From Opitutales bacterium (GTDB lineage: Bacteria > Verrucomicrobiota > Verrucomicrobiia > Opitutales > Seribacteraceae): a DNA stretch of 34,894 nt. A model generated the notes under the pieces. That model was not told the DNA's origin. It worked only from the letters and a program-made list of their open reading frames with translations, and did not search any database. Each line of letters opens with the position of its first letter. Position 1 is the first letter of the stretch. Shown here in pieces: positions 19,596 to 34,119 of the stretch. The stretch spans positions 1 to 34,894 of the forward strand of contig JAQXCL010000028.1 in assembly GCA_029251885.1 (NCBI GenBank), given 5' to 3'. The translations under genes were made by a program, and so were the position numbers.

Positions 19596-21023
19596 CTAAC
19601 GAGTTTTATCCAATGCCCGGTGCTTAAGAAAACGGTTATGCAGATTGGCAAGAACCTCTGGATACTTTGAGGAAAGCTCATTTCTTTCAAATGGGTCTTT
19701 GTTTAGGTTGTACAAAGCCCAGTCAGATGGATTTCTGGGGATTTTTTTAGAGTAGCAGACGATCTTCCAACTGTCATGTCGGACGGCCCAGCGGCGGTTG
19801 CTCTGTACCCAGTAAAAGTCGCGCTCAAGAGCTTTAGCCCCGCTCAGGATGCTGGGGGATTGATCAAAACCATCCCAAGATAGCGAACCGGTTTTTTGGA
19901 ATCCAACAACCTGAGCAACCGTAGGGAACCAGTCCACGATGTGCATGGGGTAATCGATTTGTTGAGGTTTTATTTTTTTGGGCCATACCGCAAAGCCTGG
20001 TACCTTGATGCCTCCTTCATAGACATCATGCTTTTGGCCTCTCATCGGAATGGGTTGATTGAAATCGGTAAGTTTGAGGTCGTCTGGGTAAGCGTTGCCC
20101 GGCCAATTGACCTGCGGGCCGTTGTCGGATGAAAAAAGAAGGAGGGTGTTTTCGTATAAATTGTGATCTTTAAGGGTGTCGATGACCCGACCGATGGCAT
20201 GGTCCAGATGATGAAGGGCCGCCAGAAATAATCTTTTCTCTGGATCCTCTTCCTGCTGAATTTTCCCTAGGGAGTCATTAAACCAGGGAATATCATTCTC
20301 ATTTTGCCATCGATTTGGGTTTCGCCGGTCCAATCGTGTCGGTTGATTATGAAATTTCCCCCGTTCATCCAAAGGGGTATGCACGGCGGTGTAAGGCAAA
20401 TAGAGAAAGAAGGGGTTGTCTCTTTTTTGACGAATGAAACCAATGGCATCATCGGTGATTAAATCGGTTGTATGAACCCCGTTCTCACTGCCTTCAATTA
20501 ATTCATGATTGCGATGCCAGGTCTGAAAGAGAGGGCCCTTGCGGTACCCGTGGTTGTAATTCCCCACCGCTCCTGAAAGACAACCATAGCTTTGATCAAA
20601 TCCAAAATAGTTGGGCCCGTGATCGGGGGAACTACCCAGGTGCCATTTCCCGGATAGGCAGGTATCGTATCCTTGTGATTTGAGCATCGAAGCAATGGTC
20701 GGGGTGCCTTTAGGGAAGGCTGGCTTGGTGCTGGCAGATGTGGCATGCGGGCCGAACCGGCTTGGGTACCTGCCGGTCATCAGGGCCACCCGAGTTGGTG
20801 TGCACTGAGCCATGACATAGTGGTTGGTGAACAGAGCTCCGCTTCGGGCAAGCTTATCCATGTTTGGAGTATAGACCTTCGGGTTGTTGTAGCCTATGTC
20901 AGCCCATCCCTGGTCATCGGTCAGGATAATGATTACATTTGGGCTTTGGCCGTAGGTAATACTCACGGGTATAAACACCAGATTAAGCAGACTGAATAGA
21001 ACCGATTGTATATTTATGACCAT
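19596..21023 (-). CDS. Exported sulfatase with canonical CxPxR motif (arylsulfatase A/B-like)
   Basis: The 475-residue protein has a signal peptide ending near SITYG (residues 21-25). The metal motif is LTDDQGWADIGYNN. The formylglycine segment is C74-T-P-T-R78 (AQCTPTRVALMTGRYPSRFG). LSGKWHLGSSPDHGPNYFGF and LLFSSDNGPQVNWPG follow, with GQKHDVYEGGIKVPGFAVWP. The layout is that of arylsulfatase A/B and N-acetylgalactosamine sulfatase relatives. It begins 36 bases after the stop of the DUF1501 gene at 21060 and is probably in the same transcript. Cys74 must be converted to formylglycine for activity; the maturing enzyme is not in this window. The following 127 bases to the next sulfatase contain no gene. 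Confidence 0.93.
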   Translation of the reverse strand: MVINIQSVLFSLLNLVFIPVSITYGQSPNVIIILTDDQGWADIGYNNPKVYTPNMDKLARSGALFTNHYVMAQCTPTRVALMTGRYPSRFGPHATSASTKPAFPKGTPTIASMLKSQGYDTCLSGKWHLGSSPDHGPNYFGFDQSYGCLSGAVGNYNHGYRKGPLFQTWHRNHELIEGSENGVHTTDLITDDAIGFIRQKRDNPFFLYLPYTAVHTPLDERGKFHNQPTRLDRRNPNRWQNENDIPWFNDSLGKIQQEEDPEKRLFLAALHHLDHAIGRVIDTLKDHNLYENTLLLFSSDNGPQVNWPGNAYPDDLKLTDFNQPIPMRGQKHDVYEGGIKVPGFAVWPKKIKPQQIDYPMHIVDWFPTVAQVVGFQKTGSLSWDGFDQSPSILSGAKALERDFYWVQSNRRWAVRHDSWKIVCYSKKIPRNPSDWALYNLNKDPFERNELSSKYPEVLANLHNRFLKHRALDKTR

Positions 21024-21059
21024 TTCAATCTGACTTTACATACGAGCAAGATGGACCCA

Positions 21060-22463
21060 TCAGGCGATCAATTCATTGACCACATGGGAGTGATCCACTC
21101 CGGTCAATTTCCAGTCTAGTCCCTGGTGTTTTACAGTAAAGAATTGATGATTGATTCCTAGTAAGTGAAGCATGGTGGCGTGCATGTCGTGCACATGTAC
21201 TTTATCTTTAACCGCGTGGTAGCCCAGGTCATCGGTCTCGCCGTATCCAAAGCCTCCCTTGGTTCCTCCTCCCGCCATCCACATGGAAAAGCCCTTTATG
21301 TGGTGATCGCGACCGATCTCACCCTTCCCTTGGTACATCGGGGTTCTACCAAATTCTCCACCCCAAACCACGAGGGTGTCATCGAGCATGCCCCTTTGTT
21401 TAAGATCCTGAATGAGTGCCCATGTTGGTTTGTCCGTAAGTCCGCAACAGGTGCCCATGTATTTTTCCAAACCGCCGTGGTGGTCCCAGCCCCGGTGGTA
21501 AAGATGAATGAAACGAACGCCTTTTTCAGCAAGCTTTCTTGCGAGCAGGCAATTTGATGCGTAGGAACCATCCCCGGGTGTGGCACCGTACATATCTAAA
21601 ATATGCTGGGGCTCATTTGAAACATCCATCAGTTCAGGCACCGAGGTTTGCATTTTAAAAGCCATTTCATAGGCGGCTATTCGAGTATCGGTTTCCGGAT
21701 CGTTGATTGCCTGGTTGCGGTGGCGGTCCAGGGCAGTGATTGCATCGACTAATTTTTTCTGGTGACTTGAACTGACGCCCTTTGGGTTTCGCACATAGTG
21801 AACCGGATCGCCCGTGGAATTAAACTCCACACCCTGAAATTTACTTGGAAGAAAACCGGCCGACCATTGGCGGGATGCGATGGGCTGGGGATTGCGCCCG
21901 CCCACACTGGTCATTACCACAAAACCCGGCAGATCCTCGGCTTCGCTTCCCAGTCCATAATTCATCCAAGAGCCCATGGATGGACGTCCGCTGATTGCAG
22001 TGCCCGTGTTCATGAAAGTATGAGCGGGGTCGTGGTTGATCTGTTCGGTGACCATGGAACGAATGATCGATATATCGTCGGCCATCTTTGCCGTCCATGG
22101 GAGGTAGTCACTGACATACTGCCCACCTTGACCGTACTTTTTGAATTTGGTAAGATGTCCCTGAACTTTTAGTTCTTTGCCCTGTAGTTGAGCGATTGGC
22201 TGTCCCTTGGTGAAAGACTCGGGCATTGGTTGCCCGTGGAGTTCATCAAGTTTGGGTTTGAAGTCGAAGGTTTCCAGGTGGGATGGGCCTCCAGCCATAC
22301 AAAGAAAGATGACTCGTTTCGCTTTTGCCTTGGGTAAAAGGAAGCTAGGTTTACCGGAATCTTTTGCTATGAGTGAATTGAGGGCAGCACTACCCAGGCT
22401 AAGACCGGAACCGGCAAGAAAGGCTCTGCGGTTGATATGGTTGGCGGAGAATAGTGGATTCAT
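21060..22463 (-). CDS. DUF1501 family exported protein (alkaline phosphatase-like fold), copy 3
   Basis: The 467-residue protein has the clearest Tat leader of the three: NRRAFLAGSGLSLGSAALNS (residues 11-30). It keeps KRVIFLCMAGGPSHLETFDFKP, FIHLYHRGWDHHGGL, LVVWGGEFGRTPM, IGRDHHIKGFSMWMAGGG and VHDMHATMLHLLGINH. The His-rich blocks that probably bind metal are complete. It overlaps the stop of the upstream DUF1549/1553 gene by 4 bases (22460-22463). Unlike the two pairs at 3416-12415, this pair is followed directly by a canonical sulfatase. The conserved pairing supports joint action on one substrate, but no reaction is established. Confidence 0.92.
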   Translation of the reverse strand: MNPLFSANHINRRAFLAGSGLSLGSAALNSLIAKDSGKPSFLLPKAKAKRVIFLCMAGGPSHLETFDFKPKLDELHGQPMPESFTKGQPIAQLQGKELKVQGHLTKFKKYGQGGQYVSDYLPWTAKMADDISIIRSMVTEQINHDPAHTFMNTGTAISGRPSMGSWMNYGLGSEAEDLPGFVVMTSVGGRNPQPIASRQWSAGFLPSKFQGVEFNSTGDPVHYVRNPKGVSSSHQKKLVDAITALDRHRNQAINDPETDTRIAAYEMAFKMQTSVPELMDVSNEPQHILDMYGATPGDGSYASNCLLARKLAEKGVRFIHLYHRGWDHHGGLEKYMGTCCGLTDKPTWALIQDLKQRGMLDDTLVVWGGEFGRTPMYQGKGEIGRDHHIKGFSMWMAGGGTKGGFGYGETDDLGYHAVKDKVHVHDMHATMLHLLGINHQFFTVKHQGLDWKLTGVDHSHVVNELIA

Positions 22464-24817
22464 CGTCTTAAATTGGTTTCAGCGAGATTAAGTACGGCCC
22501 GGGCAACCGGAGTCCAGTCATCCTCGGTACTTGGTTCTTGAGAGTCAAATAGTGCGGCCAGAGTTTTTTGTTCAAAGGCATCCGGAGGTCTTGAGAGAGC
22601 CTGACGGAAAGCATAGGTTAAGCGCTCCTCAATGCTGGAGCCTCCACTACTGACAATCTTTTTAGCAAAGGACTTAGCCGCTGCTAGAAAGGTTGGATCA
22701 TTGAGTAGAACAAGGGCAGCTAGGGGAGTGTTGGACTGCGGGCGTTCTGCGGAACACTCTTCCCGACTCGGGGCATCGAATGCTTTAAGCATGGGGTGGA
22801 GAAATTGTCTTTGCCAATGTACATAGAGTCCACGGCGCCAAAGAGACTTTCCTTTGTCGGTCTGGTATTTTCTTGGGGGGAAGTTGAGGTGACGATAGTA
22901 CCCGGCAGGTTGCATGGGTTTTACGCTGGGGCCTCCAATGGTGGGGACAAGTAATCCGCTAATCGCAAGAGTGTTGTCGCGTACGAACTCAGCGGGTAGG
23001 CGGCGGGCGATCTGATAGCTTTGATAGCCAGCTGGGGGCAGGGTGGCTTGCCGGTAGGTTCTACTAAATAGAATATCCTTGATGAAGACCTTGATATTCC
23101 ACTTTTTTTCGACGAGCGAGAGAGCGAGCCGGTCGAGCAATTCAGGGTGTTCCGGCGGGGTCCCTTGTCCACCAAAGTCGGTCAGGTCAGGTGCGAGCCC
23201 TTTGCCGAAAAAGAGATGCCACAAACGGTTGGCGAGCACGCGGGCATTAAGCAAACCTATACCATTCTCGGGGTCTGTAAGCCAATTAGCGAGATCAAGT
23301 CGATTCAGACGCTTTTTTTCCGATTGAATCGTTCCGAGAAACTCAGGGACGGATGGTAATACAACCGGTCCGCTATCGTCCATCCAGTTCCCTCTTGGGA
23401 GAACCCGCATAGTGCGAGGTTTAACCGCCCGGGAAACCATGGTCCAGCGGCCCTCTTTCTTTATCTTTTCTCTTTGCTCGACCAATTGACGGTAGCGGTC
23501 GATGCTAGCTTGATCGGTAAGCTCAAGATATTTGGTTTCAAGTTCGGCGAGCTTCTTTTTCCATGGTGGCTTCTTATTGTTTTTTGCTTTTTTAAGTTGG
23601 CTAGTAAATTGTGTACGGTTGTGGTCGAGGGCGTTAATTCCCAAAACGATTTCTCGGGGTAGTGCCTTGGTAATTTCTTGGCTAAGACTATCAATTCTTG
23701 CCTGCTGCTCCTGGGTAAAAATCTGAATTTCAGGAGGTCGCTTGGTAGGTAAAGAATTTCCGTTAAAACCACGGTCGCCCAGATCGGAAAAGAAGGAAGC
23801 GAGGGCATAGTGATCCTTGATGGTGTAAGGGTCATACTTATGGTCATGGCATTGGGCACAGCCGACGGTCGCCCCCATCCATACTTCTGAAACATTGCGT
23901 ACCCGGTCGGCGGCATAGATCGCGTCGTACTCCTTGATTTGCAGTCCTCCTTCATGGGTGGTCTGCAGGAGTCGGTTGTAGCCCGATGCCACTTTTTGTT
24001 GGATGGTGGATCCGGGCAGAAGGTCGCCAGCCAACTGCTCAAGGGTAAACTGATCAAAGGTCATGTTGTCATTAAAAGCTTGGATGACCCAGTCGCGGTA
24101 AGGCGATATATTGTGGGGTTGGTCACCGTGGTAACCGACGGTGTCCGCATAACGGACCAAGTCTAGCCAGTAAGTGGCGAGGCGTTCGCCGAAATGCGGA
24201 GAGTTGAGTAGGCCTTCGATTATTTTTGAGTAGGCTTTTTCAGAGGGGTTGGATTCAAAGGACTGCACTACTTGAGGTGAAGGAGGAAGGCCGGTGAGAT
24301 CGAAGTGTAAACGGCGGACAAGGGTCACAGGGTCTGCATCCTTGGCAGGGAGTAAGTTTGTTTTTTCAATATTAGTGAGGGCGAACTGGTCAATCCAGTG
24401 ACTCGACCATCCCTTGTTCTTTACTTTGGGTGTGGGGTGGTCGACAGGTGGGGCATAGGCCCAGTGGTCCGCCCAAACTGCACCTTCCTGAATCCATTGT
24501 TCGAGAATGTCTTTTTCTTCTTGAGTAAGGGGTTTACCAATTTCCGGGGGTGGCATTAGTTCATCTTCATCTTCTGAATGAACACGATAAATCATCTCAC
24601 TGTCCTCGGGACTGCCGGCTACAATCGCCATCAGTTCATCATTCTTCGCCTCCGATTCTATGTCGAGGCGTAGATCTGCTTTGCGTCCCTCTTCGTCAGG
24701 ACCGTGGCAGGCAAAACATTTATCGGAGAGGATGGGGCGGACATCCCGATTAAAATCCAGGGCACCCTGGCTGAAGGAAGCCAGAAAAAGAAGGAGAATG
24801 TGGAGGTAGGTACGCAT
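22460..24817 (-). CDS. DUF1549/DUF1553 cytochrome-type protein, short form
   Basis: The 785-residue protein has a signal peptide (MRTYLHILLLFLASFSQGA) and C34-F-A-C-H38 in the PSCyt1 domain. DUF1549 at about 130-340 includes LVRRLHFDLTGLPP, LATYWLDLVRYADTVG and a second CxxCH (CAQCHDHKYDPY, about residue 320). Between DUF1549 and DUF1553 there is only a charged, probably coiled-coil stretch (about 370-460), with none of the binding-type inserts of its two paralogues. DUF1553 at about 490-770 contains ANRLWHLFFGKGLAPD, HPELLDRLAL, CSAERPQSNTPLAALVLLND. It is followed by a 4-base overlap with the DUF1501 gene. A 16-base inverted repeat covers its start codon. Confidence 0.93.
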   Translation of the reverse strand: MRTYLHILLLFLASFSQGALDFNRDVRPILSDKCFACHGPDEEGRKADLRLDIESEAKNDELMAIVAGSPEDSEMIYRVHSEDEDELMPPPEIGKPLTQEEKDILEQWIQEGAVWADHWAYAPPVDHPTPKVKNKGWSSHWIDQFALTNIEKTNLLPAKDADPVTLVRRLHFDLTGLPPSPQVVQSFESNPSEKAYSKIIEGLLNSPHFGERLATYWLDLVRYADTVGYHGDQPHNISPYRDWVIQAFNDNMTFDQFTLEQLAGDLLPGSTIQQKVASGYNRLLQTTHEGGLQIKEYDAIYAADRVRNVSEVWMGATVGCAQCHDHKYDPYTIKDHYALASFFSDLGDRGFNGNSLPTKRPPEIQIFTQEQQARIDSLSQEITKALPREIVLGINALDHNRTQFTSQLKKAKNNKKPPWKKKLAELETKYLELTDQASIDRYRQLVEQREKIKKEGRWTMVSRAVKPRTMRVLPRGNWMDDSGPVVLPSVPEFLGTIQSEKKRLNRLDLANWLTDPENGIGLLNARVLANRLWHLFFGKGLAPDLTDFGGQGTPPEHPELLDRLALSLVEKKWNIKVFIKDILFSRTYRQATLPPAGYQSYQIARRLPAEFVRDNTLAISGLLVPTIGGPSVKPMQPAGYYRHLNFPPRKYQTDKGKSLWRRGLYVHWQRQFLHPMLKAFDAPSREECSAERPQSNTPLAALVLLNDPTFLAAAKSFAKKIVSSGGSSIEERLTYAFRQALSRPPDAFEQKTLAALFDSQEPSTEDDWTPVARAVLNLAETNLRR

Positions 24818-24830
24818 GTAAACTTACATG
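24815..24830. repeat. Inverted repeat overlapping the start codon of the DUF1553 gene
   Basis: CATGTAA and TTACATG flank a 2-base centre, and the ATG of the gene at 22460-24817 lies in one arm. It could be an operator or a structure affecting translation start. A 7-base arm can occur by chance in AT-rich DNA, so weight is low. Confidence 0.25.
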
Positions 24831-24916
24831 TGTAAAGCTAGCGAGATGAGATAATCACTCCAAGTAGAAATTTTAAAAATGGACTAAATCTGTGGAGGTA
24901 GGACCGGGGGAACTGG

Positions 24917-27529
24917 CTAGCGGAATGAGAGGGAAGAAAGGTTCATTATCCCGCTCTGAATACCCGGTTTATCGAAACAAACATACAGGTCATGTCTGCC
25001 TGAGGTTGGACTAATGATGATGGGTTGCTCGACATACTCGGACCAACTACCATTCGGGGTTACCTCGACTTTACCAATCAGTTGGCCATCCCTTGAACCA
25101 AGCCGAAGCTGGATTCCTCCTCCGGTTCCGGCACTGGCGACATAGGCTATTATCTGACGAACACCAGTGAGGTTAATCCCTTGGTAGCAAAGATAGGATC
25201 CATGCCCGATGTGACCGACCATTTTCTCGGAAAGTTTCAGACCCTGATGGGCATCTGCCAAAATACCTGGTATGTCTCTTGTTCTTAGTTGGATGAGTTG
25301 GGACCCCCTGAGTGGAGCAACAGGCAGGGCACCGCCATCCATATAACTTGCTTCAAGAAGCAGAAGGGATTGGTTGGCTTTTTTAGCATCCTTTGGCTTT
25401 TGAACGATGAGAGTTCCAGAATTTCCCCGTTGTACAGTATCCTCTTCCTGACCCAGGGCAAAAATCCAATCAACCATTTCGCGGGCAACTTTGATACTGT
25501 GCTGAGGGTGGGGCATCATCGGGATTTGCCCCCATACACCCGATGAACCGTTGACTATTCTTTTCGCGGCTTCGTTTCTTGCTTTTTTAACGCCTTGGTA
25601 TTTTTGAGAAATTGCGGAAAAAGAGGGCCCAACCAGTTGCTGGTCCACGGAGTGACAATTAAAACAATCACTTGCCTTCATGGAACCAAGCCCCGGATGA
25701 ATTTCCCCTTGCAAGCTCTTCGGTTGTTGCCCAGATGGACCAAACACCATCTTGTGAGCGAGTTTTATACGGTTGGAGTCGATCGATGCATCCTCTTCAT
25801 CGGATACATTCACCTGCCAGTGAATTGGTTGTCCAAATTCGAAAAAGTCCCCGTTTTGTGGAGAGACGATCTTGACAGAAGGCGGGCCATTGCCAACGGA
25901 TACAGGGAGCGTGGCCTCTGCACTTGCTCCTACTGCATCTCTCACGGTGAGGGAGATTTTCAGGTTTCCGAAATCCTTCAGGGTCAGGGTGGGGTTTGGA
26001 GAGGTGGAGAGAATGGAGTCATCGCCCGGTATCTTCCGCCATTCATAGCTCACGGTATCGTCCTTGTCCGGATCTTCGGTTCCCTTGCTCGAGAGACGAA
26101 TCGTCAGTGGGGCTTTTCCCGCTGTTTGGTCGGCGGAGATTTTGGCTACAGGCGGACGGTTTCCTCGAATATAATCAATGCGAACAAGTTTGGCGTTTTC
26201 GTTCTTCCCCCAGGTGGTTCCATACTCAATCAAGTAGAGGGCTCCATCCGGACCCAATGTCATATCGATGGGGCGGATGAATGGATAGTCCGGCATGAAG
26301 GGTTCGAGTTTAACCAGTTTTTCATCCTCATCGAGCCGGGCAGCAAAGACCCAGTTACGTGTCCACTCGTAAATAAAGAGACAATTGTCAAAATGGGAAT
26401 GGAGTTGGTTGGAGCTCTTCAATTCAGGGTCGTAATGGAAGACAGGACCGGCACAGGCGGTTCGTCCTCCACCGCGAAGAATACTGAACTCGGGAGTTCC
26501 CCGAGTCCGGTACCAGATGAAAGCAGGATTTGCAGGTGGTAAAGTTATGGGTTTTTCGACAAAGCTGGATCGGTTGACTGGGGCTTGCGGATTTTGTGGA
26601 GGGTGAAGTTCGGAGGTATTAAAGTCCCGCATAGGATAGGCAAAATTATTGCCCACAAAATAGGGCCAGCCAAAATTGCCAGCCTGTTTTACCTGATTGA
26701 TCTCATCGTGGCCGGCAGGGCCTCGTTCCCCCTCGAGGTAGGCATCGGGTCCGACATCACCAAAATAAAGGGTGCCGGTTTTTTGGTTGAGATTGATTCT
26801 CCAGGGATTCCTGCATCCCATCACATAAACCTCGGGCAATCCTGTGGTGCCATCTTTGGGAAAAAGGTTACCTGCGGGAACTTCGTACCCTCCATCATCC
26901 ATGGGGCGAATGCGCAAAACCTTACCGTTGTAACTAAATGGGTTAGACGAGGATTTTTCAGCACTAAGACGATGCTGCCCAGGCCGATCATCAATGGGAG
27001 CATAGCCTTTTGAGTCCCCGCCAGGGCTGGTGTCATCTCCAGTGGAAATGTATAGGCATCCGTCGGGGCCAAATTCAAGAGAGCCAGCATGATGGGAACC
27101 TTTTCCAAAAGGTTCATGGAACTCGATCAATCTTTTCTCGCTTCCCTCAATGATCTTGTTTTTTTGAAGAGTGAAGCGTGATGTTCTTTGAGAGGTTAGG
27201 CCGATTGGAGAATATTGTAAATACACCCAATTATTTTTTAAAAAGTTGGGATCAAGAGCTAGTCCGATCAACCCAACTTCACCCCTGCGCGCAACCTCAA
27301 ATTTATGAATGAGGGAAACGGATTCATCCTTGGGGTTAAGAACGCGAAACTGACCGTTGAGTTCGATAAAGAAAATTCGCCCATCGGCAGCAACTGCCAA
27401 TTCCATTGGTTGATCGAGCTTATCAAGCAACGTAACTGGTGTTAGACGGCCCGAATCATATGTCTCAGCATAGACTGTGGACAGGTGAACCATAGCGAGA
27501 ATGTAAAAGAACATGCGTTGTAACATCAT
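24917..27529 (-). CDS. Exported sugar-dehydrogenase-like propeller protein with PKD, cytochrome c and lectin-like domains
   Basis: The 870-residue protein has a signal peptide ending near TVYA (residue 21). Residues about 30-450 form a PQQ-type glucose/sorbosone dehydrogenase beta-propeller: MELAVAADGRIFFIELNG, LEFGPDGCLYISTGDDTSPGG, VYVMGCRNPWRI, GPDALYLIEYG-like blocks. A PKD domain follows (about 452-545; APLTIRLSSKGTEDPDKDD). A class I cytochrome c covers about 610-705 with C-F-N-C-H near residue 622 and a likely Met ligand in QIPMMPHPQHS. A CBM6-like beta-sandwich ends the protein (about 725-870; GIQLRLGSRDGQLIG, GRHDLYVCFDKPG). The design suggests a periplasmic sugar oxidase passing electrons to its own heme. 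It precedes the DUF1553 gene by 99 bases. Confidence 0.9.
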   Translation of the reverse strand: MMLQRMFFYILAMVHLSTVYAETYDSGRLTPVTLLDKLDQPMELAVAADGRIFFIELNGQFRVLNPKDESVSLIHKFEVARRGEVGLIGLALDPNFLKNNWVYLQYSPIGLTSQRTSRFTLQKNKIIEGSEKRLIEFHEPFGKGSHHAGSLEFGPDGCLYISTGDDTSPGGDSKGYAPIDDRPGQHRLSAEKSSSNPFSYNGKVLRIRPMDDGGYEVPAGNLFPKDGTTGLPEVYVMGCRNPWRINLNQKTGTLYFGDVGPDAYLEGERGPAGHDEINQVKQAGNFGWPYFVGNNFAYPMRDFNTSELHPPQNPQAPVNRSSFVEKPITLPPANPAFIWYRTRGTPEFSILRGGGRTACAGPVFHYDPELKSSNQLHSHFDNCLFIYEWTRNWVFAARLDEDEKLVKLEPFMPDYPFIRPIDMTLGPDGALYLIEYGTTWGKNENAKLVRIDYIRGNRPPVAKISADQTAGKAPLTIRLSSKGTEDPDKDDTVSYEWRKIPGDDSILSTSPNPTLTLKDFGNLKISLTVRDAVGASAEATLPVSVGNGPPSVKIVSPQNGDFFEFGQPIHWQVNVSDEEDASIDSNRIKLAHKMVFGPSGQQPKSLQGEIHPGLGSMKASDCFNCHSVDQQLVGPSFSAISQKYQGVKKARNEAAKRIVNGSSGVWGQIPMMPHPQHSIKVAREMVDWIFALGQEEDTVQRGNSGTLIVQKPKDAKKANQSLLLLEASYMDGGALPVAPLRGSQLIQLRTRDIPGILADAHQGLKLSEKMVGHIGHGSYLCYQGINLTGVRQIIAYVASAGTGGGIQLRLGSRDGQLIGKVEVTPNGSWSEYVEQPIIISPTSGRHDLYVCFDKPGIQSGIMNLSSLSFR

Positions 27530-29485: not shown

Positions 29486-29619
29486 CGCCCAACGCTCCCA
29501 TCTTCGTGTTTTTAGTCAACCCAGAACCCCTCCTGTAAAATAAAAAAAGATTCTTTGGGTTTCTTGATTGGACAAATCTCAGCTCATTGTACAAAAGAGA
29601 TTCCTTTAACGAACTGAAT

Positions 29620-32600
29620 ATGCGAATCAATTCCTCCCTCCCGTTGTTTCTTATAACGCTGTGCACAATTTGCACATCTATCTTTGCTCAAAGTCTTGTT
29701 TACAAAGGGGGCAATGGTCCTGGGCAGGGCAAACACTTAGTCTTGGTGGCGAGCGATCACGAGTACCGTGCTGAGGAAACCATACCCGCACTTGCGAGAA
29801 TTCTCTCAGTTCACGGTGGGTTTGATTGTACAGTCTTGTTTGGGGTTACTGATCAGGGAGAAATCCAAGCTGGGATATCGAATATTCCCGGTTTGGAAGT
29901 TTTACAAAAAGCAGACGGGTTGGTCTTCTTTGCACGTTTCCTTGCTTTGCCCCCCGAACAGATGAAGCACCTTGACGAGTATTTTGGCCGGGCTGGACCA
30001 GTGGTTGGTTTACGTACATCCACCCATGCGTTCAAATACGACAAGAACAAGGTGAATGATCCCTATGCCAAATATGATTTTCGTTTTGCAGGCACCGACT
30101 TTAAGGGAGGTTTTGGTGAGCAAATTCTGGGTCAGTCCTGGGTGGGGCATTACGGACAGAATCACCGCCAAAGCACACGCATCGATTTGGTGCCCGAAAA
30201 AAGGAATCATCCAATTTTAAGAGGCGTCAATAAGGTGCATGTCATGGCAGGTGGTTACAACGCAGAAGCCCAACCAGACTGGAATATTCTAACCATGGCC
30301 CAACCTCTGATGTCGATGGAACCGAATGGGGAAAATGATCCACAGAAACCACCTATGGCAAGCGAGTGGACCCGTGCTTACACCGCAAAGAACGGAAAGC
30401 AGGGCAGGGTGTTTACATCTCTGTATGGAGCGTCAATGGATCTAGTAAATCCGGGCTACAGGAGATTGATCTTAAACGGTATCTATTGGACGGTTGGCTT
30501 GGAGGACAAGATAAAGCCTGATTCAAAAATCGAATTTGTCGGGTCATTTAATCCCAGCAAATTTCAGGTTAGGGGAGAAGTAAAGGGGGTAAAGCCTTCG
30601 ATGTATGCTGATTTAACTGGGCCGATTCCGGCCGATCCGAAGGCTGTTGTTCAAAAGGTAGAGTCTGTCACTGCGAAAAACCAGAATGTGCGAAAGGGGG
30701 CACGATTTCTGCGGGTTGAAATACCGAAAGACAATAAAATACTAACCTTAAACGAAGTTGAAATTATAAGTGGAGGTAAAAATGTCGCCCCTAAGGGTAA
30801 GGCCACCCAATCGAGTACGGGTGCAGGTGGCGTCGCATCGCGAGCCATTGATGGTAATAAAGACCCAGATTATAACAAAGGTGGGCAAACCCACACCGAT
30901 GGATTTGGTTCTGTTAATCCTTGGTGGGAAATTGATCTAGGTAAGGAATATAAAGTCGATGAGGTAGAAGTTTGGAACAGGAAGGGCTTTGAATCGAGAT
31001 TGGATGGATTTACCATCCAATTATTGGATGCCAATCGGAAACAAATTTATAAAAGCGGAAAAACCAAGGGTGCCCAGCGAATCAAGTTTACTCTGAGGTT
31101 TAGGACTGTAATCGAATTTTTCCTCTATGACGGAAAACCAGAGCCAGTTGCTTACAAGCCCGTGCCATACCAAGTCAATGTACCTGCTGATTACAAAGAT
31201 ATTCTTCCGTTTGCTTTTAAGAAAGGAGACAAGATTGCCATACTTGGAAATGGGTTAGCTGACAGGATGCAACATGATGGGTGGACTGAGGCACTGCTGC
31301 AAAGCGAGCTTAAAGATAAAGAAGTGAACTTCCGTAATATGAGTCTATCCGGTGACCGACCTAATAGCTATCCCCGTAGTAAGGGGTTCATGGAAATGAA
31401 TGATTACCTTCGCCATGTAAAAGCGGATGCGGTCTTTGCCATGTTTGGTTATAATGAATCTTTTGAGGGCGAAAAAGGTGCGAGCCGATACAAACAGGAA
31501 CTGATTAAATTTGTTAAAAACATTCGTGGTTCAAAAGCAAATGGAGAGAACTTTCCTCGGATCATTTTGTTCAGCCCGATCGCCTTTCAGGATTTAAAGG
31601 ACCGAAACCTTCCTCGTGGAAAACTTCAAAACAGGAATCTCGCACTCTATACAAAAATCACCGAGGACGCCGCCAAAGTTACTGGAGTTGAATTTGTTGA
31701 TCTTTACAATCCAACCCTGTCGCTTTTCCAAAAGACTACTCAACCACTAACGATTAACGGGGCTCACTTGAATGAGGAGGGTAACCGATTGCTTGCAGAG
31801 ATTATCGCTAAGGCACTGCTTAAAAAAGAGGTGAATGCAAAAGCTTCCTTGGAAACTCTTCGCCAAGCTGTGATTGATAAAAACTGGCATTGGTTTAATC
31901 GCTATCGTGCGACTGATGGCAACGACATTTGGGGGGGGCGCTCTAAGTTACGTTTTGTGGATGATCAAGCCAACTCAGTAGTTTTACAGCATGAACTCAA
32001 GATGCTTGATATGATGACTGCCAATCGAGATCAGCACATTTGGAGGATGACAAAAGGTATAACGAGCAAGGTGGATGACTCCAGTGTGCCTGCACCCGTA
32101 AAGGTCATTTCCAATGTGGGTGGTGGAAGTATCAGTTCGAGTGCCATCAAGGAGGGTTCCACCAAATACCTGAGCCCGGCGGAAAGCTTGAAGCGGTTAA
32201 CGGTGAGGGATGATTTTGAAGTTAATCTATTTGCTGATGAACAGCAGTTTCCTGAACTCATCAATCCTGTGCAAATGCAAGTCGACGCCAAGGGGCGGCT
32301 TTGGGCCGCGGTCTGGCCCACTTATCCGATGTGGGAACCCATGAAACCGATGAACGATGCCTTGGTTATTTTGCCTGATGACAACAAGGATGGCAAAGCC
32401 GACCGGGTCATTGAGTTTGCCAAAGTTCACAACCCGGTAGGTTTCGAGTTTTGGAACGGAGGAGTATTGGTTACTTCTGGTCCTGATCTACTTTTCTTAA
32501 AAGACACGGATGGAGATGATAAAGCGGATGTGCGGTATGTTATTTTGCAGGGTCTAGGTACTTCGGATACACATCACGCAGCAAATAACTTAATTTATGG

Positions 32601-34119
32601 CCCTGATGGTGGAATTTATTGGCAAAGCGGTGTCTTTCTTCAGCACAACCATGAACATCCTTGGGGGCCAAGTCTTAAGACTACTGCCTCCGCGATGTAC
32701 CGTTTTGATCCACGCCGGCACACCATTGCCTTTCATGGCAGCAATAGCCCCAACCCCCATGGGATTGCCTTTGACTACTGGGGGTATCATTACGCGACGG
32801 ATGGAACGGGAGGGCGTGCCTTTCAGGTATACCCGGATGGGAATTCCTGGAAAATGCGCCAATTACTTGCCAAGGAAGTGCGCCCAGTACCCGCATGTGA
32901 GGTTGTTTCGAGTGATAATTTTCCTGACTCCATGCAGGGCGATTTCCTCATCTGCAACACCATTGGTTTCCTCGGGGTAAAACAATACAAACTTAACCGG
33001 GATGGTGATTTTACCAAGACGAGCGGGAGCGGAAGGTGGGAGAATGGTGCCAAAGTTTCCAGCCAATCTAAATTTGGCGAGGTCTGGGGAACTCCTAATG
33101 GTCAGAAGCTTTCTGTTATAAAAGATTTATCTGATGGTTCAAAAGTGGAGGAGGAATCCGTTGGCTTTATGCTTAGCGGGGATAAGAACTTCCGCCCGAC
33201 CGATGCGATTTTTGGAGAAGACGGAGCTCTTTATGTATCCGACTGGCAGAACGTCATCATCGGACATATGCAACACAATGTCAGGGATCCAAACCGGGAT
33301 GAAAAGCATGGGCGGATTTACCGTTTTACTAACAAAAAGAAGCCTCTGCAAAAAGCGGTTAAAATCGATGGGGAGTCCATAGAGAAGCTTCTTGCCAATT
33401 TAATGCACCCGGTGGATAGCGTGCGCCATCGCACCCGGGTGGAGTTGAGCGAGCGTGATTCCTCCGAGGTAATCAAAGCGACCCAGGAATGGATGAAGCA
33501 ATTTGACCCGAACAAAAAGGAGGATGCCCACCACTTGCTCGAAGCTCTTTGGTTGCATCAGCAGCACAATTTCCGAAACGGACGCTTGCTCAATCAACTG
33601 CTCAAGTCTCCCCATCCGCATGCCCGGATGGCGGCTCTAACCGTGCAGCACCATTGGTACAATGCCAATCCCACCAAAGGGGTTGAAGAGATTGAGGAAG
33701 AGCATATCGAAGAGATGGCTCAGTCTGGAGTTCTTTCCGATACCCCCGAACTAACCACCGTTCGTATCGGAACCATTCCAGAGAAAATGAAGTACGACCT
33801 CGCCGAATTTACGGTTCAAGCCGGCAAGGCGGTCAAGTTGATCTTCGCCAATCCTGACTTCATGCCCCACAACCTGGTGATGGTCAATCCGGGCAAGGCG
33901 GATGAGGTCGGCAAGGCCGCGATTAATTTGGGAGCCGGTGGGTTCGATGTCGCCTTTGTGCCGCAGAGCAAGGAAATCCTCTGGGCGAGCAAACTCATTG
34001 ACCACAAACAGGAGGAGATTATCGAATTTAAGGCACCAACCCAGCCTGGGGATTACCAATATGTATGCACCTTTCCTGGTCATCACTTTGTGATGCGTGG
34101 TTTGATGAAGGTTCGCTAA
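29620..34119 (+). CDS. Giant exported ThuA / discoidin / SGNH / propeller protein ending in a cupredoxin domain
   Basis: The protein has 1499 residues from the ATG at 29620, chosen over the TTG at 29587 because it gives the signal peptide [21 protein letters not shown] ThuA-like domain covers about 25-300 ([16 protein letters not shown]). A discoidin-type module lies at about 357-497 ([23 protein letters not shown]). An SGNH-like domain covers about 537-740 ([35 protein letters not shown]). A PVC membrane-bound dehydrogenase propeller spans about 855-1240 and a helical HEAT-like stretch about 1250-1350. The end (about 1375-1499) is azurin/plastocyanin-like with ligands [15 protein letters not shown] and the Met of RGLM. 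No CxxCH occurs, so the usual cytochrome c tail is replaced by a blue-copper site. Probably a periplasmic oxidoreductase; substrate unknown. Confidence 0.9.

Follow-up and report, generated by a model that had tools for sequence, protein, structure and literature searches.

A predicted blue-copper tail on a giant DUF7133 propeller protein of Opitutales, and exchange of copper and heme tails in its wider family

A protein of 1510 amino acids from an Opitutales bacterium ends in a cupredoxin, and sequence and structural model together confirm the prediction of this tail as a type 1 (blue) copper domain. The protein is encoded by the open reading frame 29587-34119 of the stretch analysed here, hereafter called the window, which comprises 34,894 nucleotides of GenBank assembly GCA_029251885.1 (contig JAQXCL010000028.1; source genome of 2.18 Mb, 94% complete). 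Elsewhere in the DUF7133 propeller family, close relatives have swapped copper and heme tails, and this exchange suggests, as far as sequences can tell, that the two kinds of tail share one role as electron carriers. We regard it as reasonably probable that the window protein is a redox protein built on a propeller, located in the periplasm or secreted, which has the tethered type 1 copper domain as its own electron carrier.

Architecture of the protein and its copper ligands

The features of the gene are the following.

29587..34119, plus strand: whole gene, with ThuA, F5/8C, SGNH-like domain, DUF7133 propeller, HEAT-like helices and cupredoxin (open reading frame list, Pfam, NCBIfam)
29620..29688, plus strand: likely signal peptide (read by eye from the sequence)
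29770..30492, plus strand: ThuA domain, residues 62-302 (PF06283, 36.6 bits, cut-off 33.4)
30802..31086, plus strand: F5/8 type C (discoidin-like) domain, residues 406-500 (PF00754, 37.7 bits; PF22633, 47.5 bits)
31276..31791, plus strand: SGNH/GDSL-like domain, residues 564-735 (PF13472, 42.3 bits; motifs read)
32173..33336, plus strand: DUF7133/TIGR02604 beta-propeller, residues 863-1250 (PF23500, 209 bits; TIGR02604, 172 bits; fold)
33379..33663, plus strand: HEAT-like helical region, residues 1265-1359 (helices in the model; HEAT_2 matches in relatives)
33667..33717, plus strand: flexible, poorly conserved linker, residues 1361-1377 (pLDDT below 50 at model positions 561-577; low identity)
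33772..34113, plus strand: predicted cupredoxin (blue copper) domain, residues 1396-1509 (PF00127; auracyanin; 6kol)
33868..33870, plus strand: predicted copper ligand His1428, in MPHN (alignment, sequence)
34066..34068, plus strand: predicted copper ligand Cys1494 (alignment, sequence)
34081..34083, plus strand: predicted copper ligand His1499 (alignment, sequence)
34093..34095, plus strand: predicted axial ligand Met1503, in FVMRG (azurin/auracyanin spacing, alignment)

Although the frame opens with a TTG at 29587, translation probably starts at the ATG at 29620, because this ATG is the first one in frame and is conserved in the relative at locus L039. Pfam matches to the ThuA, discoidin and SGNH modules all lie within the 1510-residue frame, which bears out the upstream fusion described in an earlier note on this DNA. 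In the SGNH-like domain (31276-31791), block I reads GNGL and block V reads NGAH. When the residues of an active SGNH hydrolase (Ser, Asp, His) were looked for in the frame, the catalytic Ser and Asp appeared to be lost; among ten relatives, Asn stands instead of the Asp of DGxH in all ten, and only two (L076 and L083) retain the Ser of GDS. Because the catalytic Ser and Asp are missing, the SGNH-like domain is probably a binding module.

An AlphaFold2 model of residues 801-1510, built with 43 sequences, reached a mean pLDDT of 85.7 and a pTM of 0.74. The propeller is of the PVC type by its TIGR02604 score (172.1 bits, cut-off 122.2). The linker at residues 1361-1377 has a pLDDT below 50 and a mean identity of only 19%, against 58% in the propeller and cupredoxin, and for these reasons the stretch between the HEAT-like helices and the cupredoxin is read as a tether. 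TIGR02604 bears the name "PVC-type heme-binding CxxCH protein" and is over its cut-off on this heme-less frame, which makes the name a trap; automatic annotation through it labels such copper proteins heme-binding and is misleading.

The earlier note's description of a C-terminal cupredoxin in a protein devoid of CxxCH holds. The motif is absent from all 1510 residues, which contain only six Cys (26, 29, 81, 1104, 1123 and 1494), Cys1494 being the sole one beyond 1123. PF00127 (Copper-bind) matches residues 1396-1509 with 37.0 bits (cut-off 21.2, E 4.6e-9), and the best three solved relatives of the tail by sequence are auracyanins (E 2e-14 to 7e-13). The azurin equivalog TIGR02695 gives 33.8 bits against a cut-off of 105.1, so that the tail is not azurin proper by this profile.

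The predicted ligands H1428, C1494, H1499 and M1503 have the azurin spacing C-x4-H-x3-M, and all four are invariant in 28 of 28 aligned relatives. A complete set of blue-copper ligands had been correctly recognised before; the Met of RGLM (M1507), chosen then as the axial ligand, was the wrong one, as it is M1503 that fits the azurin/auracyanin spacing. Position 1507 is Leu in two members of the 28-row alignment (L034 and L047), in which M1503 is invariant, and the auracyanin A match likewise puts the axial Met at M1503. The motif CTFPGHHxxMRGxM is kept in all 19 ortholog loci with a frame reaching the C-terminus, and 83 of the 85 cupredoxin matches from the best 80 of at least 583 relatives have C-x4-H-x3-M together with the HN histidine, the two exceptions being a fragment in L061 and one match cut by a contig end; with both counts taken together, the blue-copper motif stands well above chance. 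The L061 fragment (L061:7616-7969) is a decaying cupredoxin of 118 amino acids that lacks the full ligand motif and lies downstream of an intact copper-tailed gene.

In the model, the cupredoxin domain has a pLDDT of about 90 (AlphaFold2) and superposes on the solved auracyanin 6kol from Roseiflexus with an rmsd of 1.4 A and a TM-score, by target length, of 0.86. Judging by this match to solved blue-copper proteins, the four ligands are predicted to sit together in space.

Distribution of the copper tail and its exchange with heme

At least 583 relatives turned up when 84,980 species genomes were scanned, and the best 80 of them were analysed further; by record titles, their sources include Verrucomicrobiota, Planctomycetota, Bacteroidota and Hydrogenedentota. 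Among these best 80 of at least 583, with domains called by our own HMMs from few seed sequences, the cupredoxin shares its frame with DUF7133 in 52 cases, with an SMP-30-like propeller in 6 and with a weak GSDH-like partner in 18 (mostly Bacteroidota, scores of 10-33 bits), while 4 have no propeller partner and 3 of these end at a contig edge. The closest named relatives are marine Opitutales (Verrucomicrobiota), and the cupredoxin of one of them, Opitutales bacterium AH-709-B10 (L051), is 93% identical. A cupredoxin match was found in 41 of the 42 genomes of the family, with full-length orthologs in the genera g1 and g3. Elsewhere, copper tails are patchy, since none of 38 other genomes sampled from the phylum has such a cupredoxin in a long frame, three of them having only frames of 171-197 amino acids.

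Split orthologs occur at five loci, in g2, g4 and genome G017. There, the gene for SGNH and DUF7133 stops just before the position of the cupredoxin, which instead terminates an SMP-30-like propeller protein encoded by the following gene of the same strand, with 4-84 bases between the two frames. An SMP-30/gluconolactonase-like propeller (PF08450) with a cupredoxin, directly behind a tail-less propeller gene, is seen at L044, L045, L046, L049 and L050. The ortholog at L021 (G007:C2) is interrupted by several in-frame stops, through decay or assembly error, and tandem pairs of copper-tailed propeller genes, with frames 95-96 bases apart, occur at L054, L059 and L065.

Tails were surveyed in six related genomes, as the earlier note had proposed, by taking every PF23500 match, which gave 86 DUF7133 frames; the tail domains were called with our own HMMs built from few seed sequences. 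Heme tails were found in 40 frames, copper tails in 19, both in none and neither in 19, and the remaining 8 were cut. Relatives are thus usually heme-tailed, as had been stated, and both kinds are present in every genome, with 2 to 14 heme-tailed proteins in each of the six beside the copper-tailed ones. In two of the 19 copper cases (L151 and L199), the cupredoxin lies on the N-terminal side, before a DUF7133-like propeller. The 80 relative loci are uninformative on the frequency of heme, because they were picked for likeness to the copper domain.

A tree of 72 propellers combined 41 of the 86 surveyed frames with 28 rows taken from the 80 relative loci and 3 chosen rows; frames that were cut, shorter than 300 amino acids or below 140 bits with our own DUF7133 profile were left off, as were, by hand, 26 of the 80 loci, mostly near-copies or fragments. 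Over 64 rows of this tree, at least 7 changes between copper and heme were counted. In the starred 24-row clade that contains the window protein, 16 members carry copper, 5 copper plus heme and 3 split copper, and none is heme-only. On this sequence record the copper tail is the rule in the window's lineage, and heme has not been replaced on this branch. As copper is fixed there and no close relative is heme-only, the earlier description of the cupredoxin as standing in place of a cytochrome c is wrong for this protein and describes only the larger family.

Two families illustrate the exchange. In fam1, the propellers of L047 (G016, copper) and L156 (G038, heme) are 90% identical, and their alignment breaks in frame right after the HEAT region; of the 17 members read, 16 have heme and 1 has copper, and this copper-tailed protein, which recurs as L072, comes from a single assembly (UBA3151) that may be a chimera. 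In fam2, with 11 members, 7 heme tails (G028, G041, G040, G008, G012, G009 and G011) and 4 copper tails (G020, G039, G034 and G029) come from separate assemblies, and the tree has 3 tail changes, with one change in 0 of 200 bootstrap trees and the order of gain and loss not fixed by the tree. Heme tails also vary in kind: that of L184 is partly like SoxX and TIGR02603, and that of L032 is PF00034. Because the copper and heme tails look interchangeable, both probably carry electrons.

The two carriers may also stand on one chain. A CxxCH motif follows the cupredoxin in one frame in 6 of the best 80 of at least 583 loci (L067, a fragment; L069; L070; L102; L120; L129), and in L069, L102 and L129 the heme part is over the TIGR02603 cut-off, the order being propeller, copper, heme. 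L069 and L070 are near the window protein, with the full architecture alike. Since heme follows the cupredoxin on chains such as these two, the copper domain can, by its position, occupy the place of an intermediate carrier between the propeller and the heme. A second model, of the copper plus heme tail of L069 with 5 rows, had a pLDDT of 71.8; its top 50 Foldseek matches were cupredoxins only, and the heme part is backed by profiles alone.

A standalone azurin-like cupredoxin gene lies within about 2 kb of at least 9 of the 24 listed heme-tailed DUF7133 genes, in one subfamily with frames of 481-744 amino acids, a count obtained by comparing rows by eye; L141 and L166 were checked and have no such neighbour. 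At L031:2347-2826 and L131:745-1221, the standalone cupredoxin gene is convergent with a heme-tailed DUF7133 gene. As standalone cupredoxin genes face heme-tailed DUF7133 genes, this arrangement suggests azurin-like carriers as partners of these DUF7133 proteins.

Electron path, propeller chemistry and competing explanations

The nearest fold to the propeller is that of the PQQ-dependent sugar dehydrogenase 3a9g (Z 25.0, rmsd 3.0 over 283 residues), with further matches to DFPase (Z 23.8), SMP30/gluconolactonases (Z about 23) and the AA12 enzyme 6h7t (Z 21.9). Because DFPase and the SMP-30 lactonases lie only 1-2 Z below the best PQQ enzyme, the modelled fold alone does not settle the chemistry of the propeller. 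The GSDH family PF07995 is absent from the Pfam matches of the frame at E 0.001, and the propeller sequence profile matched no solved PQQ sugar dehydrogenase. The pqqC gene was over cut-off in none of the 42 family genomes, which are incomplete; the same search did detect it above the cut-off in 6 of 288 genomes from the phylum, and 14 control genomes gave no match. As the family has no detectable pqqC, PQQ, if used, would be taken up; judged by genome content PQQ was rejected as the cofactor, its uptake being possible. Seven propeller residues (D994, H996, N1056, D1219, H1227, R1243 and R1246) show 96-100% conservation over 45 copper-bearing rows, and 100% over the nearest heme-tailed rows, 7 in number. 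In the heme-tailed rows at a greater distance (16 in all), three of them (D994, H996 and N1056) are common to half or fewer, which counts against the redox-protein reading.

From two established points, the nature of the tail and the interchange of copper and heme, we infer the following course of events. The ThuA, F5/8C and SGNH-like modules would hold a carbohydrate-like substrate, which the propeller would oxidise with a cofactor; electrons would hop singly from the propeller to the copper, and the copper domain would swing on its linker and pass the electron on to a soluble azurin-like cupredoxin, to a cytochrome c or, in some relatives, to a heme domain further along the same chain. The copper-based electron path put forward earlier gains support by such reasoning, its best evidence being the copper/heme swaps on near-identical propellers. 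Against the redox-protein reading stand the 19 of 86 DUF7133 frames that are tail-less in frame, and the hydrolase folds close behind the best fold match. On a wider scale, and with confidence somewhat short of even, we propose that DUF7133 propellers are modular redox enzymes with a C-terminal socket for blue copper, for several kinds of cytochrome c or for copper and heme in series, that these carriers have been repeatedly exchanged, and that the copper-tailed marine Opitutales-like branch represents an undescribed class of copper-dependent glycan oxidoreductases.

The DUF420/CtaM-like gene just downstream had been taken as a hint of a link to a terminal oxidase. DUF420 directly follows the ortholog in G000, G003, G004, G006 and G007, and also on contig C85 of G025, which carries an ortholog 94% identical to the window protein and probably belongs to a relative of g1; in G001 and G005 a contig end truncates the ortholog, and G002 gave no match. 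The adjacency is limited to g1 and this one g1-like contig. DUF420 lies on other contigs elsewhere, and the next gene is a different one in all four g3 neighbourhoods read (L040, L041, L042 and L043). Because DUF420 is over cut-off in 37 of the 42 genomes, neighbour or not, the oxidase hint is unsupported, and a conserved DUF420/CtaM link was rejected across the 42 genomes. Genomes of the PVC group encode many giant cytochrome-tailed proteins, often near sulfatases. On the minus strand of the window, at 19596-27529, a Sulfatase, DUF1501, PSCyt1-PSCyt2-PSD1 and a GSDH + PKD + CBM6 protein form one run, a typical PVC heme/sulfatase cluster close to the copper-tailed gene.

Other explanations of the copper-tailed propeller protein were weighed against the redox reading. 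It is rather unlikely that the propeller is a lactonase, another hydrolase or a scaffold, with tails that have some unconnected function, for instance in anchoring, in sensing or in moving electrons between other proteins. The closeness of DFPase (23.8) and gluconolactonases (about 23) to the best PQQ enzyme (25.0), the fusion of the cupredoxin of split orthologs to a PF08450 propeller and the lack of pqqC in the 42 genomes are all consistent with such a role, but the repeated swap of two one-electron carriers at one place is hard to explain if the protein is purely hydrolytic, and the strong conservation of the seven propeller residues in copper-bearing and nearest heme-tailed rows also argues against it. 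A structural role alone for a cupredoxin fold that has lost its copper hardly seems credible: one degenerate relative, the 118-aa fragment in L061, would agree with it, whereas the ligands are invariant in all 28 rows and the motif is kept in 83 of 85 matches.

Blue copper and heme are known to replace each other with metal supply in the pair of plastocyanin and cytochrome c6, and the coexistence and interchange of both tails within the same genomes and families would fit a copper tail adapted to iron-poor or copper-rich water, sparing iron by replacing heme. We consider this improbable: iron is not avoided, since heme-tailed proteins are kept in six of six genomes (2 to 14 each), and copper is fixed in the window's lineage. 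Electrons might also flow inward, from the copper domain into a propeller of reductase type, on the pattern of nitrous oxide reductase, with which Foldseek indeed produces an alignment over about 700 columns and both domains (E 6e-10). This direction of flow appears very improbable, because, with TM-scores of 0.2-0.3 and an rmsd near 25 A, the two domains as arranged here fail to superpose on those of the reductase. A CuA signature requires two Cys in the loop and CuZ has seven His; the loop of the tail offers a single Cys, and only 3 propeller His are invariant over 43 sequences (196, 197 and 427 of A2). Since Cys1494 is alone there, no CuA is expected in the tail. An outward path, from propeller to tethered copper, is the reading that we retain.

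Comparison with known systems

The tail shares with auracyanin (Chloroflexus, Roseiflexus) and azurin the cupredoxin fold and the H-C-H-M ligands in a CTFPGH..M loop, with 35% identity to 6kol; those proteins, however, are separate carriers, whereas the present domain forms the tail of a propeller protein of about 1500 amino acids. In the examined text of a survey of azurins, azurin genes are described in Verrucomicrobia with auracyanins as the outgroup, and propeller-cupredoxin fusions are not treated (PMC8779525). The propeller family is common to the PVC-type heme-binding CxxCH proteins (TIGR02604 with TIGR02603), from which the window protein differs in its copper tail and its lack of CxxCH. 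The PQQ-dependent sugar dehydrogenases, including AA12, have the nearest propeller fold, but PF07995 is absent here, as is pqqC in the 42 genomes. Nitrous oxide reductase likewise places a cupredoxin fold after a propeller, in contrast to which the present protein has one Cys and few conserved His.

The natural exchange of heme and blue copper on nearly identical propellers is evidence for a tail that carries electrons and a propeller that is its redox partner, and the copper tail would offer a coloured, easily tracked reporter (600 nm) for finding the substrate. Copper-tailed DUF7133 or PVC propeller proteins are absent from the open-access literature as searched by title and abstract, with subscription papers and preprints outside that scope. 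The closest parallel to the exchange is provided by three-domain copper nitrite reductases, of which, in the portions consulted of one account, RpNiR and PhNiR carry a C-terminal cytochrome c and TsNiR and HdNiR a cupredoxin, the role of the tethered domain being debated (PMC13324648). As described there (PMC13324648), one core occurs with either tethered heme or tethered copper, as it does in our family; the core itself is unrelated, being here a DUF7133 propeller with many paralogs per genome. A core enzyme with a tethered cytochrome c or cupredoxin is therefore already known, and what is new is such a swap on the DUF7133 propeller family.
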